From the NCBI GenBank assembly GCA_001778375.1, contig MFGV01000012.1:1-45027 (forward strand): a stretch of DNA of 45,027 nt, written 5' to 3'. This document shows positions 41-35,542 of the stretch, in pieces. The stretch is from Candidatus Firestonebacteria bacterium RIFOXYD2_FULL_39_29 (lineage in GTDB: Bacteria; Oederibacteriota; D2-FULL-39-29). The notes below the pieces were generated by a model that saw only the letters and a program-made list of their open reading frames with translations, searched no databases and was not told the DNA's origin. Both the position numbers and the translations under genes were made by a program. Each line of letters begins with the position of its first letter. Within the stretch, counting starts at the first letter, position 1.

Positions 41-71
41 GGTGTTTCTAGAAATAATTGCGACACAGTCT

Positions 72-222
72 GAATTACTAAATTCTAAGCACTAAACAAT
101 ACGCAAATCTTAAGCTTTAAACAAAATCATTGTATTTAAGTAATAATCTTCTTTTTTAGTTATTAGTTATTTAATCTTAGTAATTGTTGTCGAATTTAGT
201 GCTTAGTACTTAATTAGTTATT
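72..222. repeat. Intergenic inverted-arm spacer element
   Basis: Two arms of similar wording face each other. A 12-bp perfect core CTAAGCACTAAA (85-96) is inverted at 195-206, with less perfect matches on both sides and a 98-bp AT-rich middle. The arrangement resembles the arm-middle-arm spacers at 33281-33435, 34255-34471 and 40251-40503, although the arm words differ. There is no open reading frame inside. It fills the space between the left-edge leader and the stop codon of the MauE-like gene. Confidence 0.5.
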
Positions 223-4645: not shown

Positions 4646-5331
4646 TTTTTAACCTTTCTCAACAAACCGTTATCCAGATGGTAAATGCTTTCAAATTTTT
4701 CCGCAAGTTCTTGATTATGGGTCACCATTACCACAATAACCTTTTCCATCTTAGCCAATTTTAAAAATATATCAACTACTTTTTTTCCGTTGGCCGCATC
4801 CAGATTACCGGTAGGCTCATCACAGAGCAGAAGTTTCGGAGAATTTAGCATAGCTCTGGCAATTGCCACCCTTTGCTTTTCCCCTCCGGAAAGCCCGGAA
4901 GGAAATGAACCCGCTTTATCTTTTAAACCAAGCTTAGAAAGAAGTTCAACCCCTCGTGCTTTAAGCTCCCTTCCCTTTCCCTCCGGTATAGCCGGCAGTA
5001 AAACATTTTCAAGCGCGGTGCACTGCGGCAAAAGAAAATGCTCCTGAAAGATGAAACCTACAGATCTATTACGATAAGCGTATAACTCGGCCCCTTTCAA
5101 ATTCAAAACATTTACACCGTCAAGAATGATCTCACCACTATCAGGATCCTCGATTCGTCCGATTATACTTAAAAGCGTGCTCTTCCCCGACCCCGAAGGT
5201 CCGGTAACTGCAAGAGTCTCTTCCGGCAGAGCATCAAATGAAATTTTCTTAAGTACCTTCAACTCCCCCGCCGCATTTTTGTAATTTTTACATATTCCTT
5301 TAACCTGCAAGCCACTCTTTTTTATCAACAT
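4642..5331 (-). CDS. ABC transporter ATP-binding protein, LolD/MacB type
   Basis: The 229-residue ATPase has every canonical motif: Walker A GPSGSGKST (44-52), Q-loop Gln96, signature LSGGEKQ (147-153), Walker B LLLCDEPTGNLD (167-178) and H-loop His205. The EPTGNLD wording is typical of the LolD/FtsE/MacB ATPase group that pairs with FtsX-like permeases. It should energise the permease encoded immediately downstream, whose start overlaps its stop by 4 bp. A clear GGAGG site lies 9 nt upstream of the ATG. The promoter region is shared with the divergent propeller gene at 5519 and contains a palindrome at 5354-5373 covering a TATAAT. Confidence 0.93.
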   Translation of the reverse strand: MLIKKSGLQVKGICKNYKNAAGELKVLKKISFDALPEETLAVTGPSGSGKSTLLSIIGRIEDPDSGEIILDGVNVLNLKGAELYAYRNRSVGFIFQEHFLLPQCTALENVLLPAIPEGKGRELKARGVELLSKLGLKDKAGSFPSGLSGGEKQRVAIARAMLNSPKLLLCDEPTGNLDAANGKKVVDIFLKLAKMEKVIVVMVTHNQELAEKFESIYHLDNGLLRKVKN

Positions 5332-29659: not shown

Positions 29660-32600
29660 CTTTCACCGCCCAGAAAAACCAGATTTCTCTCATAGGTAAT
29701 GGTTGCAAGGCTCCGGTACTTTTTATTTATTTCCAGCGCTTTTTCTTTCTCCCGGCCGGCTGCCTTAGTATTTTTCTGCTTCATATATATTTCGTAAAGC
29801 GCCCAATGCCCGCCTGCGTAATTTGGTTCAAGGCTTACGGCTTCTCCGGCATATTTTTTTGCATGTTCATACCTGCCCTCAAAATAGCAGATCCTTGCAA
29901 CTTCGGACTTAAAAAACACATCAAAAGGACTTTTTTGGATTGCAGCAGCGTACTCCTGCAAAGCCAGAGACGGGTAACCTGCATAAAAATAAAACAGCCC
30001 AAGTTCTCTGTTGAACTCCGGATTTGCCGGATTATTTTTTGCCGCCTGTTTAAAATTCTTTTCCGCTTCAAAGAACAACTTTTTGTCCTTTGTATTCAAG
30101 TAACCGCCTGCATATAATTTCCCCAGCCCGGCGTAACTGTCCGCAAACACGGGGTTTAAAAACATTGACAGCTTCATATTCCTCTCAAATTCCCCGGCAT
30201 TTGAAGGTTCCATCTTGTAAAAATATACGGAAAGATACGACATCCCTGCCAGAAGCATAAATATTGAAACCAGAAGCGCAGCAAATATTTTAAATTTAAA
30301 ATAATTTGGTTTTTCTGCAGCAAGAGCTTTCTTTGATGTAAAGTATCCGGAAAAGAGCACACCCGTAAGAAGAACAAAGAATATCAGGGTCGGCAGACAA
30401 TGAAAATTAAAATCAACCAGAGCATGGGCAAATAAACCTGTAAGAGAAGTAAAAACAGCGCAAGCCGTAAATATTTTTCCCTTGTCCTTTGTATTTTTTA
30501 TAATAGTTATAAACCTGTTCACAAGTACAAAAAGAAAGACTAAAATTAAACCCGCCCCCAAAACTCCGAGCTCTGCCATTGTCTGCAGATATTCATTATG
30601 CGCATGATGAGCGACCCTGGTGTAGTTACCTATAGTTCCACCCTCGGGAAACCGGTATTTGGGTGCAATATCTTTAAAGGTATTAAGCCCATAACCAAGA
30701 AAAGGCCTGTCTTTAAACAGCTTAAAAGCGCTTACTGCTATTTTACCTCTGGAATACGCTGCATCGTCATATACTCCGTCCCTGGCGGCCCTTTTAACTA
30801 CAGGGTTAAGGGGAGTTATTAAGATCCCAATCACAACCAGTATGCTGACTGTGGTCCAAAATCTAACCGGTTCTTTCACTATTTTCTTTTTCTTTAATAT
30901 TATCAGAGCAAACAGAAAGAATACTAAAATTATTCCGAACGCCAATAAAGCGCCCCGGGACTTTGTTAAAAGAAGGCAAATGAAAGAAAGTACCGCGCTT
31001 ACTGCATAGAATATTCGAATTGTTCCTTTTTTACTCAGGATATCATATAAAAGGAACCCGATTCCCGCCGCAAGAAATCCGCCGAGAAAGTTCGGATTAG
31101 GGAAAAAAGCATCTACTCTGTCCGCTTTGAACCATATATATTGAGAAATCCCGGCAACAGAAACAAACAAACATACCAGCCCCGTAAAGAAAGAAAAATA
31201 ACCGATATCTTTGGCTTTACTTATACTATTAACCGCGGAATAATAGACCATCACGCATCCGAGCAGTAAATATACAGCCCGAAAAGAAACAAATCTGTTT
31301 ACTGAAACCACTAAGGAAATGAAACAGGTGAAAAGCAGGGCAATTACAAAAATATCTAATTTTGTCCTGATATACGTATTGCTCAAAGAAACAAACGAAA
31401 GAAAAAGAAACGCGCTTAAAAACACAAATATTATCAGGGCTTCATTTTCAAAACGGCTTGCAGAAAGTATTATGGAAACCGACAGCAGAACTATAGAAAA
31501 TATACGGAAATAATTACGGCTCAAGTATCCGGATATTACAGGAAGAATAACCGGATTATTTTTTGTTTTGGTACCGGACTTAAAACCGGCAGCGGTAATT
31601 CCTGCCAGCGCAAAGGCGGTCAAAGAATTCTGCCAGAGGTTACTGTCTATATCTAAAAGATTATGGAAGAGGAAGCCGCAAAATCCTGCAAATAAACCGG
31701 CAAAGACAAGCTTCTTTCTTCCTTCCATTCTTTTTAAAGTTCTGATACTTTCTCTTACCATGACGCAAACAAAAATAAGCAGTGCTCCAAAACCTAAAAC
31801 CCCTGTCTCGACAAGAGTCTGCAGATACCAGTTGTGCGGATATTTAACCCCGCCTGCGGCCAGAGACCCGTAGGTGTTTACTCCGCTCCCCAGAACCGGG
31901 TTTTTCATGAACATTTTAACAGCTTCACTGAAATAACCAAACCGGTTAAGAACAGAATTATCCATATTTGAAAAATCTAAAATATCAGGCCGAAGAAATA
32001 ATACCGCCGCGAAAAAAGCAGCAGATAAAGCACCTGCTGCCAGAAGCACCTTTTTCTTTTCTTTGATCACGGACAAAAGAAAGACTAAAAGAGAAAATAA
32101 AACAGCAAGCATTCCTCCGACAGAAGAGGTCAGAGCAAGGGATGCCGTTAAAATGACCACAATAAACCCCACACCTATTTTTGTCAACAGACTTTTGCCG
32201 TTGTTTGCAGAGGCTCCTTTACCTGCTTCGGAAAGAAAAATCCCCAAAGCAACAGGTAAGACCATTGCAATATAGCCTGCAAAAACATTCGCATTTAGAA
32301 AGGTGGAAAAAACTCTTCCGGCGCCTATATTTTTAAGAAATTCTTCATATACTCTGGGATTGGAAACAATGTCCTTATTCTTATCAAGGTAAACAGCCAT
32401 ATCAGAAAGTCCCGTAAATTTCTGATAAAAAGCATAAATAGCCGTAAATACTGCGCCGCCAAGTACGGCAAAAGCTGCTTTTTTTCTGTCAACAGGAGAA
32501 CTAAAAATATTTAAAGAAACAAGAAAGATAGCCAGAAAATAAATAAGTTGAATGTTCATCACATTAAAAGGAACAGTCTTTGAAAAAAGAGCGGCAAAAA

Positions 32601-32816: not shown

Positions 32817-33263
32817 TTACCTTTTGGTTTTAGATATATTTACAGCCGCAAGGAATCCAAGAATATAACTGTCTTTTCCAAAACCAAATATTCCTCCGGC
32901 GGAAACAGGAGAAATATAGGATTTATGCCTGAATTCTTCACGCTTAAATATATTGGAAAGATGGACTTCAACTGCCGAGATCTTTACGGCAGATATGGCT
33001 TCTCTTATAGCCACACTTGTATGAGTGTAGGCAGCAGGATTAATGACCATTGCATCCGCCCAGGATTCACATTCTTTTTGAATAATATCTACAATTTCAC
33101 CTTCAGTATTTGTCTGAAATATTTTTATACCAACTTTACTTTTCCTTGCCAGGGCTTTCAGTTCTTTATTAATAGATTCGAGAGTCACTTTTCCGTACAC
33201 ATCCGGCTCCCGCTTACCGAGTAAGTTAAGATTCGGCCCGTGAATTACTAGTATGTTTTTCAT
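32817..33263 (-). CDS. aroQ: 3-dehydroquinate dehydratase, type II
   Basis: The 148-residue enzyme dehydrates 3-dehydroquinate to 3-dehydroshikimate in the shikimate pathway as a cytoplasmic dodecamer. The type II signatures are complete: HGPNLNLLGKREPDVYG (8-24) with catalytic Tyr23, INPAAYTHTS (74-83), VHLSNIFKREEFRHKS (100-115) with catalytic His101 and Arg112. Length is normal. It is the first gene of a four-gene run with the surface-glycan genes, 5 bp before the polymerase. GGAGGGG precedes the ATG. The spacer upstream is filled by the repeat element at 33281-33435. Confidence 0.97.
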   Translation of the reverse strand: MKNILVIHGPNLNLLGKREPDVYGKVTLESINKELKALARKSKVGIKIFQTNTEGEIVDIIQKECESWADAMVINPAAYTHTSVAIREAISAVKISAVEVHLSNIFKREEFRHKSYISPVSAGGIFGFGKDSYILGFLAAVNISKTKR

Positions 33264-33280
33264 AAAAACCCCTCCTAAAA

Positions 33281-33435
33281 GATAATGACTAAGTACTATT
33301 GACTAACGACTATTTAAGGAACGCGGGGAAAATACCCGCCAAATATTTTAAAACATTTATTATTTTCAATAAATATCAGCGGTGCTTTTATCACCCACCT
33401 TAAATAGTCACTAGTCATTTGTCATTGGTAATTTT
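33281..33435. repeat. Intergenic element X1 (arms plus inverted core)
   Basis: The element fills the gap between aroQ (its ribosome site) and the amidohydrolase stop codon. Left arm 33281-33319 and right arm 33398-33435 are imperfect inverted repeats ending in GACTATTTAAGG/CCTTAAATAGTC. Inside are hairpins GCGGG/CCCGC (33323-33339) and GGTG/CACC (33381-33395). Bases 33363-33392, read on the minus strand, match 34301-34328 at about 25 positions with three short indels. Bases 33288-33316 match 34264-34292 at 28 of 29 positions in direct orientation. Confidence 0.65.
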
Positions 33436-33437
33436 CG

Positions 33438-34238
33438 TTACTGTATTTTTAGTATCTTCTTAGCATTCTCGTAAAAATACAAGTGGATATCACCATAAGT
33501 GAAACCCAGAGAAGTCAGTTTTTCGGACCACCAATCATCATCCAAACCATATTGTTCTCCGGCGTTATCAGTCCCGTACATCAACTGGGTCCTGAACATC
33601 GATTTCAAACCGGGCATATCATTCTCAAAAACCCACCTTCCCCAGCCCGGGCAGGTATCGGCAAAAGCATTTTTAAGCCTGGAGGTAAGAACAAGCGTCT
33701 CCAGATACGTCGCGCCCCCGCCAAAGTGCGCAAATATAAAATTAATACCGGCATGCCTTCTGGCAGGCACTTCAAAATGAAAAGGACTTGCTCCGTCTAC
33801 AGACTCCAATCTCATGGAAGGATTTTTACTGTTTGGCAAGATCCAGCCGCAATGAGAAAATACAAGCATTTTTCTCTTTTCTACTTCCTGCCAGATCGGT
33901 TCATACTGATCATCATTGGGATCAAAACCTACATTCGGAAATAGTTTTATGCCTATAAGGCCTTTATCTCCATACTTCTTTATTAAATCAAGAGCTTTAT
34001 CAACCCCTTTCGAAAAATCCACGGCAACAGTACCAAAAAACCTTTGAGGATGGGCTTTTACGGCTTCAACAACAGCTTCATTGGGATTAGGCATATCCTT
34101 ACCCCAGTCCCAGCCCTCTTCCGGAAAACCGTGAACAAGACCGGCGACAACATTATGCTTATCCATTATCCGGAGATACTTTTCCATCTTAGAATCACCT
34201 GCTATCGGATGAAGATGTATGTCTATTTTTTGTATCAT
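33438..34238 (-). CDS. Amidohydrolase-2 family metal-dependent hydrolase or decarboxylase
   Basis: The 266-residue TIM-barrel protein carries the amidohydrolase metal-binding positions: IDIHLHP near the N-terminus, VFSHCGW mid-protein, FIFAHFGGG and a C-terminal YGTDNAGEQYG with the catalytic Asp. It belongs to the PF04909-like group (aminocarboxymuconate-semialdehyde decarboxylase and relatives), whose members hydrolyse or decarboxylate diverse small molecules. The substrate is unknown. Genomic position between aroQ and pheA might suggest an aromatic compound. However, it is separately bounded by repeat elements X1 and X2 carrying a 28/29 direct repeat, so its location may be secondary. AAAGGAG precedes the ATG. 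Confidence 0.85.
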   Translation of the reverse strand: MIQKIDIHLHPIAGDSKMEKYLRIMDKHNVVAGLVHGFPEEGWDWGKDMPNPNEAVVEAVKAHPQRFFGTVAVDFSKGVDKALDLIKKYGDKGLIGIKLFPNVGFDPNDDQYEPIWQEVEKRKMLVFSHCGWILPNSKNPSMRLESVDGASPFHFEVPARRHAGINFIFAHFGGGATYLETLVLTSRLKNAFADTCPGWGRWVFENDMPGLKSMFRTQLMYGTDNAGEQYGLDDDWWSEKLTSLGFTYGDIHLYFYENAKKILKIQ

Positions 34239-34254
34239 AAAAACTCCTTTGAAA

Positions 34255-34471
34255 GATGTAATTACTAAGTACTATTGACTAATGACTATTTATTGTAACG
34301 GATAAAGCTTCCGTATATTTATTGAAAAAGATTCCACTGATAAAGTCTGCTCTAAATCCTAATCAGCTCTCGTAAAATCTCTTTTATACTTTCCTATACT
34401 TTTAAAAACTATTATATCGGCGAAGGTTCCATTTCGCCCTTCATTAAATAGTCATTAGTCATTAGTACTTT
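34255..34471. repeat. Intergenic element X2 (arms plus forward core)
   Basis: It fills the space between the amidohydrolase ribosome site and the pheA stop codon. Arms 34268-34292 and 34445-34469 are inverted repeats with 24 of 25 matches, made of AGTACTA and TGACTAATGACT words. Inner hairpins are ACGGA/TCCGT (34298-34314) and GGCGAA/TTCGCC (about 34419-34438). The core 34301-34379 (GATAAAGC, CCGTATATTTATTG, AAGATTCCACTGATA, AAAGTCT, AAAATC) has partial matches in the spacers at 11261, 16554, 33363 (inverted) and 40288. No ORF is present. Confidence 0.65.
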
Positions 34472-34474
34472 CTT

Positions 34475-35542
34475 TTATTGTTTCTCCGCCGGGTATGATC
34501 CAAGCACCTTAAAGAACCGGCATTCCTTCCGGAGCTCACTCAGCGCTTTCTTTACATTTGCATCTTCCACATGTCCGGACATATCAATGAAGAAGAAATA
34601 TTCCCACGCTTTCTTTCTTGAAGGACGCGACTCAATACTTGTAAGATTGATTTTATACTTTTTAAAAGGCAAAAGCATGGAATACAATGCCCCCACTTTA
34701 TCTTTCAAAGAAACAAGCACAGAGCTTTTGTCATTTCCGGTTCTTGCCACATTTTTCCGGCCTATTATTAAAAATCTGGTAAAGTTATCCGGTATATCTT
34801 CAATCCGGACCGCCAGAGAATTTAGGATATAGAGCTCTCCTGCTAAAGAATTTGCTATGGCCGCACTGTTTTTATCTTTAGCCGCAAGACGGGCAGACTC
34901 GGCTGTATTTTTTGCCTCTACAATTTCTATCTCCGGCAAATTAGTCTTAATCCAATTACGGCATTGCGCCAGAGGCTGATTAAAAGCATAAATCTTCTTA
35001 ATCTGTAAAAGATTTTTAGATTTACTGAGAAGATTATAAGAAACCTTCAACAAGGTCTCCGCACAAATTTTCAGATCTGAATCTACAAACATATCAAGTG
35101 TATGATTTACCACACCTTCCGTGGAATTTTCAATGGGAATAACACCGTAATCAGCTCTTCCATTTTCTACTTCAGCAAAAATATCCGCAAGATTCTTAAT
35201 TGCTACAAGCTCTACGGAAGAGCCAAAATGACGAATCGCAGCCAGATGGGTAAAAGTAGCTTCCGGGCCCCAGTAGGCAATCTTTAAAGGCGCTTGCAAA
35301 GCTCTTGAGGCAGATACTATCTCCTTAAAAACCGCTTTTACAGAATTATCCGGAAAAGGTCCTTTATTTCCTGACAGTATTTTCTTAAATACCGCAGCTT
35401 CGCGTTCAGGGACATAAACCTCATATCCGGCTCCCGATTTATGCTTTTTTACCTGCAGCGCCAGACCGGCTCTAATATTTAACAGGGAAAGTAATTTTTT
35501 ATCCGTACCGTCTATTTTTTCCCTGATTTTTTTTAAGTTCAT
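34475..35542 (-). CDS. pheA: Bifunctional chorismate mutase / prephenate dehydratase (P-protein)
   Basis: The 355-residue enzyme converts chorismate to prephenate and then phenylpyruvate for phenylalanine synthesis. There is an AroQ-class chorismate mutase (about 1-85, LKKIREKIDGTDKKLLSLLNIRA). A prephenate dehydratase domain follows (about 90-272, KIAYWGPEATFTHLAA, GVIPIENSTEGVV, and the TRF motif in NFTRFLIIG). A C-terminal ACT domain (about 278-350) carries the ESRPSRKKAWEYFFFID feedback-binding block, so allosteric inhibition by Phe is expected. It is the last gene of the site-2 protease-trpS-scpAB-PilZ run, and its ATG overlaps the preceding stop by one base. Confidence 0.96.
   Translation of the reverse strand: MNLKKIREKIDGTDKKLLSLLNIRAGLALQVKKHKSGAGYEVYVPEREAAVFKKILSGNKGPFPDNSVKAVFKEIVSASRALQAPLKIAYWGPEATFTHLAAIRHFGSSVELVAIKNLADIFAEVENGRADYGVIPIENSTEGVVNHTLDMFVDSDLKICAETLLKVSYNLLSKSKNLLQIKKIYAFNQPLAQCRNWIKTNLPEIEIVEAKNTAESARLAAKDKNSAAIANSLAGELYILNSLAVRIEDIPDNFTRFLIIGRKNVARTGNDKSSVLVSLKDKVGALYSMLLPFKKYKINLTSIESRPSRKKAWEYFFFIDMSGHVEDANVKKALSELRKECRFFKVLGSYPAEKQ

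Follow-up and report, generated by a model that had tools for sequence, protein, structure and literature searches.

This locus raises the question of whether two repeat-armed elements make the single gene between them a mobile unit, or whether the gene and the elements each have a history of their own. The window, a stretch of 45,027 nucleotides (contig MFGV01000012.1), comes from the genome of Candidatus Firestonebacteria bacterium RIFOXYD2_FULL_39_29 (G000; 3.0 Mb in 93 contigs), and coordinates are window positions unless labelled otherwise. Three genes with strong Pfam matches lie here on the minus strand: pheA as the upstream neighbour (34475-35542), encoding chorismate mutase/prephenate dehydratase (Pfam CM_2+PDT+ACT); an amidohydrolase gene of the Amidohydro_2 family (33438-34238), assigned by Pfam and synteny; and aroQ as the downstream neighbour (32817-33263), encoding a type II dehydroquinase (Pfam DHquinase_II). 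The initial annotation had described a direct repeat beginning two arm-core-arm elements, which fill both spacers of the amidohydrolase gene, and had proposed a one-gene cassette. The structural description is borne out: the two 29-mers (33288-33316 and 34264-34292) are identical but for a single base (28/29) at a spacing of 976 bp, element X1 (~33284-33433) occupies the aroQ-amidohydrolase spacer (33264-33437), and element X2 (~34260-34470) occupies the amidohydrolase-pheA spacer (34239-34474), with the pheA stop codon ~4 bases from its edge. Two features had been overlooked, namely that the arm repeats occur genome-wide, and that a second, unrelated repeat is nested in X2.

Read on the plus strand, X1 opens with a left arm of the alpha type (33284-33316; heptads AATGACTAAGTACTATTGACTAACGACTATTTA) and closes with an inverted right arm of the beta type (33401-33433; TAAATAGTCACTAGTCATTTGTCATTGGTAATT). 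Its core contains a first hairpin evident from the sequence, GCGGG gaaaata CCCGC (33323-33339; predicted fold z -5.6), and, in the predicted fold, a central AT hairpin (33355-33374) and a second hairpin, GGTG cttttat CACC (33381-33395). X2 likewise runs on the plus strand from its left arm (34260-34292; AATTACTAAGTACTATTGACTAATGACTATTTA) to an inverted right arm (34445-34470; TAAATAGTCATTAGTCATTAGTACTT), enclosing the predicted hairpins ACGGA..TCCGT (34298-34314; z -7.8) and GGCGAA..TTCGCC (34419-34438). It is longer than X1 because the unrelated repeat of ~80 bp, beginning TTGAAAAAGATTCCACTGAT (34322-34401), is nested inside; this repeat is matched with 90% identity across 81 bp in contig C87 of the same genome (L189 8298-8378), and partial short matches elsewhere suggest that it is a family of its own. 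Allowing up to two mismatches, TGACTAATGACTA has eight matches in the window against 0.72 expected, a number not reached by any shuffle, and seven of the eight fall in X1 or X2.

The arms are widely dispersed. One arm searched against G000 gave 74 matches with at most one mismatch, compared with 0-1 in a reversed control, and fetching the surroundings of the arm matches resolved them into ~45 copies, 35 two-armed and ~10 one-armed, with X1 and X2 being two among them. A sister species, 'Candidatus Firestonebacteria bacterium RIFOXYA2_FULL_40_8' (G001), carries 20 copies within the stretches fetched. Of 45 genomes from the phylum (Ca. Firestonebacteria), a strict two-arm pattern matched G000 and G001 and none of the other 43, and G001 was the sole match among 84,980 species of GTDB, a set from which G000 was possibly left out. 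The element had no match in a plasmid search, nor any match to Rfam covariance models at E<=1. Carriage by viruses was also considered and rejected: 45 viral pattern matches were found, but they are attributed to chance because none has a second heptad.

A typical element measures ~105-210 bp and lacks an open reading frame. Two terminal arms in inverted orientation, each with about four units of 7 bp (heptad unit TGACTAN), enclose a core in which two GC-rich hairpins are usually present. The arms are of two end types, alpha (TGACTAAGTACTAnTGACTAnTGACTATTT) and beta (GTACTAnTGACTAnTGACTAnTGACTATTT). Over 30 bases, the two arms of a copy differ by a mean of 6.7 mismatches, compared with 5.8 between arms of different copies. 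Co-variation of arms within a copy is thus ruled out, and it was the failure of this test that led to recognition of the two ends; the arms of a copy are not mirror copies because each copy has one end of each type. Core hairpin stems vary between copies yet retain pairing, as in GCGGG/CCCGC, GATGAC/GTCATC and GGCCTGC/GCAGGCC. Cores without arms have a mean fold z of -3.8, with 31 of 32 below -2, in single-sequence folding against mononucleotide shuffles, and the whole of X1 and X2 give -5.6 to -7.8 against dinucleotide shuffles. Cores of 35 bp are 89-100% alike at unlinked loci (C84, C2, C63 and, in G001, C142), and shorter core types exist with the same alpha and beta ends. A separate repeat of ~42 bp (AAGCATAGCTTGTTTTGATCTTGAATACTTGAGCAAAATA) is inserted at one and the same arm point (TAAATA/GTCA) in G001 contigs C16 and C78 (L126, L119) and in G000 contigs C36 and C82.

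Placement was scored for 45 copies with both neighbours identified, taking gene ends from a simple ORF caller. Forty of these lie in spacers between co-directional genes, and in 33 of the 40 the arm edge is no more than 10 nt from the upstream stop codon. The stop codon lies inside the arm in 13 copies, and the next start codon typically follows 15-25 nt past the far arm. The elements fit closely into the gap from one gene's stop codon to the Shine-Dalgarno sequence of the next. Orientation is not fixed, since the alpha end is upstream in 11 copies and downstream in 14, and such randomness fits a symmetric RNA structure and neutral parasitic DNA alike. The arms close 2.75 of three reading frames compared with 1.87 after shuffling, a property that might allow an element to insert across a stop codon without harm.

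The age of this occupancy can be gauged from 20 spacers paired between G000 and G001 through flanks ~75-90% identical, a few of them cut by contig ends. With arm types assigned by eye on alignments, TGACTA elements are present in both species at 14 of the 20 spacers and an other-armed palindrome occurs at six. GACRATT-type arms stand in G001 at two spacers, the X1 site among them, a palindrome with 9-base arms is present in one species at three, and AAGTACR heptads are found at one. Cores are nearly identical at some paired sites (C26/C142, C75/C16) and replaced at others. None of the 20 spacers is an empty site, so recent mobility is not demonstrated. At the corresponding genes, most spacers of G002, from the same genus, lack such palindromes. 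Scanned de novo, 396 kb of G000 yielded 22 palindromes, several of them with arm periods of 7 or 9 bases, and 80 kb of G005 yielded four, while 240 kb of G002 and 80 kb of G003 yielded none. Other repeats came to light alongside these. A second G000 palindrome family has 9-base GTTTGTAAR arms (L199 9307-9438, L199 12356-12507 and L162, C45 ~29820-29970), and G005 has similar 9-base arms (GTTTATAAC). Another dispersed repeat of ~60-95 bp occurs in many G000 copies (C15:895-987, C66:17578-17665, C45:8929-9003, C36:24346-24431) and in G001 (L128 ~4780-4870).

As to how the elements might move, oriented copies have no recurring duplication of their flanks as a target site, and a transposase gene bounded by alpha and beta ends was not found. 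Mobilisation by a RAYT/Y1 transposase was rejected, as none of 12 Y1 loci in G000 has TGACTA heptads within 1.5 kb. The one Y1 gene that was read from end to end carries GGGACAGTCCC palindromes in place of heptads, and at L255 a RAYT-like Y1 gene flanked by GGGACAGTCCCTAAGGGACTGTCCC palindromes (~1260-1300 and ~1935-1970) represents a separate REP-like system. The candidate for an autonomous parent element, the widely spaced arms in C15, encloses ordinary genes only; it was the sole such set examined, in an incomplete genome with unassembled insertion sequence (IS) copies.

One such IS bears on the arms directly. Its end, CAGACTGTGTCGCAAT, is present in 61 copies, all in G000 (window 57-72 on the minus strand, and 60 other places), and is absent from G001-G003. 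The copies form the ends of an unassembled IS and lie mostly at contig ends, as do all 24 matches of one IS end. The outer flanks, most of which terminate in AATT, have a 7-base periodicity of 0.52 compared with 0.31 in AT-rich background, and 23 of 48 reach at least 0.55 where 2.4% would be expected. Five short MITE-like derivatives of 117-119 bp with both IS ends lie in heptad arrays (L185 17319-17437; L222; L231; L247; L201), and their 4-bp target duplication is exact in four and one base off in the fifth. Judged from these flanks, the IS inserts mainly into the heptad arms of the palindromes, which are its landing site. Insertion sequences that target REPs are known, and REPs are IS insertion hotspots (PMC1525189). 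A further heptad family, AAGCACTAAACAATTACTAAT, is seen mostly where the IS has inserted (L228, L229 and L239, at the starts of contigs C11, C12 and C26).

Whether the amidohydrolase gene travels with its flanking elements can be judged from related genomes. The order pheA-amidohydrolase-aroQ is kept in four sister-family genomes with element-free spacers of 20-29 bp, and the gene is therefore ancestral at the locus. It is absent from G002 and from G003 and G004 of the same family, where the pheA-aroQ spacers (66-210 bp) hold no TGACTA element, although 9-base repeats occur in the G003 and G004 spacers. The junction predicted by the initial annotation, with one element and no amidohydrolase, is thus not what the relatives show: they have the gene without the repeats, or lack it with no TGACTA element left behind. 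In G001 the order is pheA-X-amd-X-amd-X-aroQ, with tandem amidohydrolases and elements (X) in all three spacers, one of which contains an N gap. The middle element is a hybrid, its outer flank as in the pheA-side element and its amidohydrolase-proximal hairpin as in the aroQ-side element, which supports recombination between flanking elements; unequal exchange between them, acting once, probably produced the tandem. In the amidohydrolase protein tree, G001 copy A groups with G000 to the exclusion of G001 copy B (support 0.98), which places the duplication before the split of the two species, so that G000 later lost one copy. Site patterns of the G000 gene are copy-A-like over the first 480 nt and lean towards copy B at its 3' end, and the stretch in between shows signs of conversion; on this weak evidence, a crossover within the genes looks at least as likely a cause of the loss as one between elements.

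Gain or loss of the amidohydrolase gene with one element, by recombination between the direct repeats, would account for the placement of the 28/29 repeat, for the variable number of amidohydrolase copies (two in G001, none in G002-G004) and for the hybrid element. It does not account for the same gene at the same place without elements, for ~45 element copies elsewhere that stand beside ordinary operon genes, or for gene-less junctions without a TGACTA element. The cassette reading is largely refuted by the element-free synteny, and we consider it very unlikely; what survives of it is the capacity of the repeats to recombine, as seen in G001. The earlier statement that no recombinase is present holds for the window, and no site-specific integrase was seen around the locus. 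The amidohydrolase gene is an ordinary operon member, long resident here, and a false lead is thereby removed for this locus. Another origin, in which the heptads expanded through slippage of the polymerase and a templated inversion gave rise to the second arm without any transposition, could draw on the occurrence of several unrelated arm units of 7 and 9 bp, and on a statement in PMC4679880, citing Mrazek et al. 2007, that long simple repeats in most repeat-rich bacteria have 7 as their commonest period. This seems highly improbable, as the arms of a copy are two defined ends rather than copies of each other, and one arm sequence recurs at ~45 unlinked loci with shared cores.

The more serious competitor is that the elements are MITEs of a wholly neutral, parasitic kind: a transposase that has since been lost would have spread them once, and they would have been kept only where harmless. 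Distinct ends, the lack of an open reading frame, random orientation and similar cores at unlinked loci all agree with this, and a strong survivor bias would be expected to leave such copies in stop-codon/Shine-Dalgarno spacers. Against it, all 20 compared spacers are still occupied after ~20% flank divergence, six of them with a different palindrome type, where decay or loss at some sites would be expected, and hairpins persist in cores of differing sequence. We regard neutrality as possible, though rather unlikely. A further reading is that these operon spacers are selected to hold a large palindrome of whatever sequence, which would be a position-conserved but sequence-replaceable intercistronic element. 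Structure and not sequence would then be conserved, with unrelated palindrome families (TGACTA, GACRATT and AAGTACR heptads, and nonamers) taking each other's place in sister species within one gap between stop codon and Shine-Dalgarno sequence. This remains a tentative proposal, to which we give still less credence than to neutrality; if true in more strains, replacement at fixed sites would separate an intercistronic structural role from parasitic spread, a long-standing question with REP-like elements.

We favour, with moderate confidence, the reading that X1 and X2 belong to a family of dispersed, non-coding, MITE/REP-like intercistronic palindromes, which builds on the dispersion, two ends, placement, folding propensity and old occupancy observed here. 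On this reading, orthologous sites, gene context and orientation counts indicate that the elements settled in operon spacers, from stop codon to Shine-Dalgarno sequence, mostly before the split of G000 and G001, and were kept in either orientation. From the similar cores at unlinked loci and the two defined ends, we infer that they spread as DNA, probably mobilised in trans by a transposase or recombinase for which the heptad ends are substrates. Within polycistronic mRNA, each element is predicted to fold into a stem of ~30 bp with internal hairpins, and such an intercistronic structure could influence mRNA processing or stability and uncouple translation. The elements would also have supplied the homology for the unequal exchange in G001.

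The family amounts to a dense system of operon-spacer palindromes with repeat arms, in a phylum that has not been cultured. Its ends are of two defined kinds, one palindrome family apparently replaces another at fixed positions, and an IS inserts into these palindromes by preference. The elements resemble REP and MITE types and the heptamer pairs of Xanthomonas, and are proven members of neither. In Xanthomonas, GGGAATC heptamer arrays form inverted pairs at 70-75 per genome (Rehm et al. 2015, PMC4692102); they too are intergenic, often have about four units, and lie mostly between co-directional genes near the 5' neighbouring gene (PMC4692102). Their unit, GGGANTN, is G-rich and quadruplex-forming, in contrast to TGACTAN here. 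The REP/BIME/REPIN elements and their RAYT transposases (PMC3116915, PMC2817692) offer a second parallel as dispersed extragenic palindromes and IS hotspots (PMC1525189). REPs are 20-40 bp long and in most cases are tagged at one end by GTAG or CGTC (PMC3733652), whereas the arms described here are heptad arrays with neither tag and no association with a Y1 (RAYT) gene. MITEs are similarly short, non-coding and multicopy with inverted ends, but the present elements have no target duplication, and no parent transposon was found in the one widely spaced set of arms examined. Finally, the TAACTGA repeats of Beggiatoaceae and some Cyanobacteria, known as 169 sets of direct arrays and one indirect repeat (PMC4679880), are likewise intergenic heptamers with stop triplets, often found just upstream of start codons (PMC4679880); they form direct arrays, unlike the paired arms around a core that define the elements described here.
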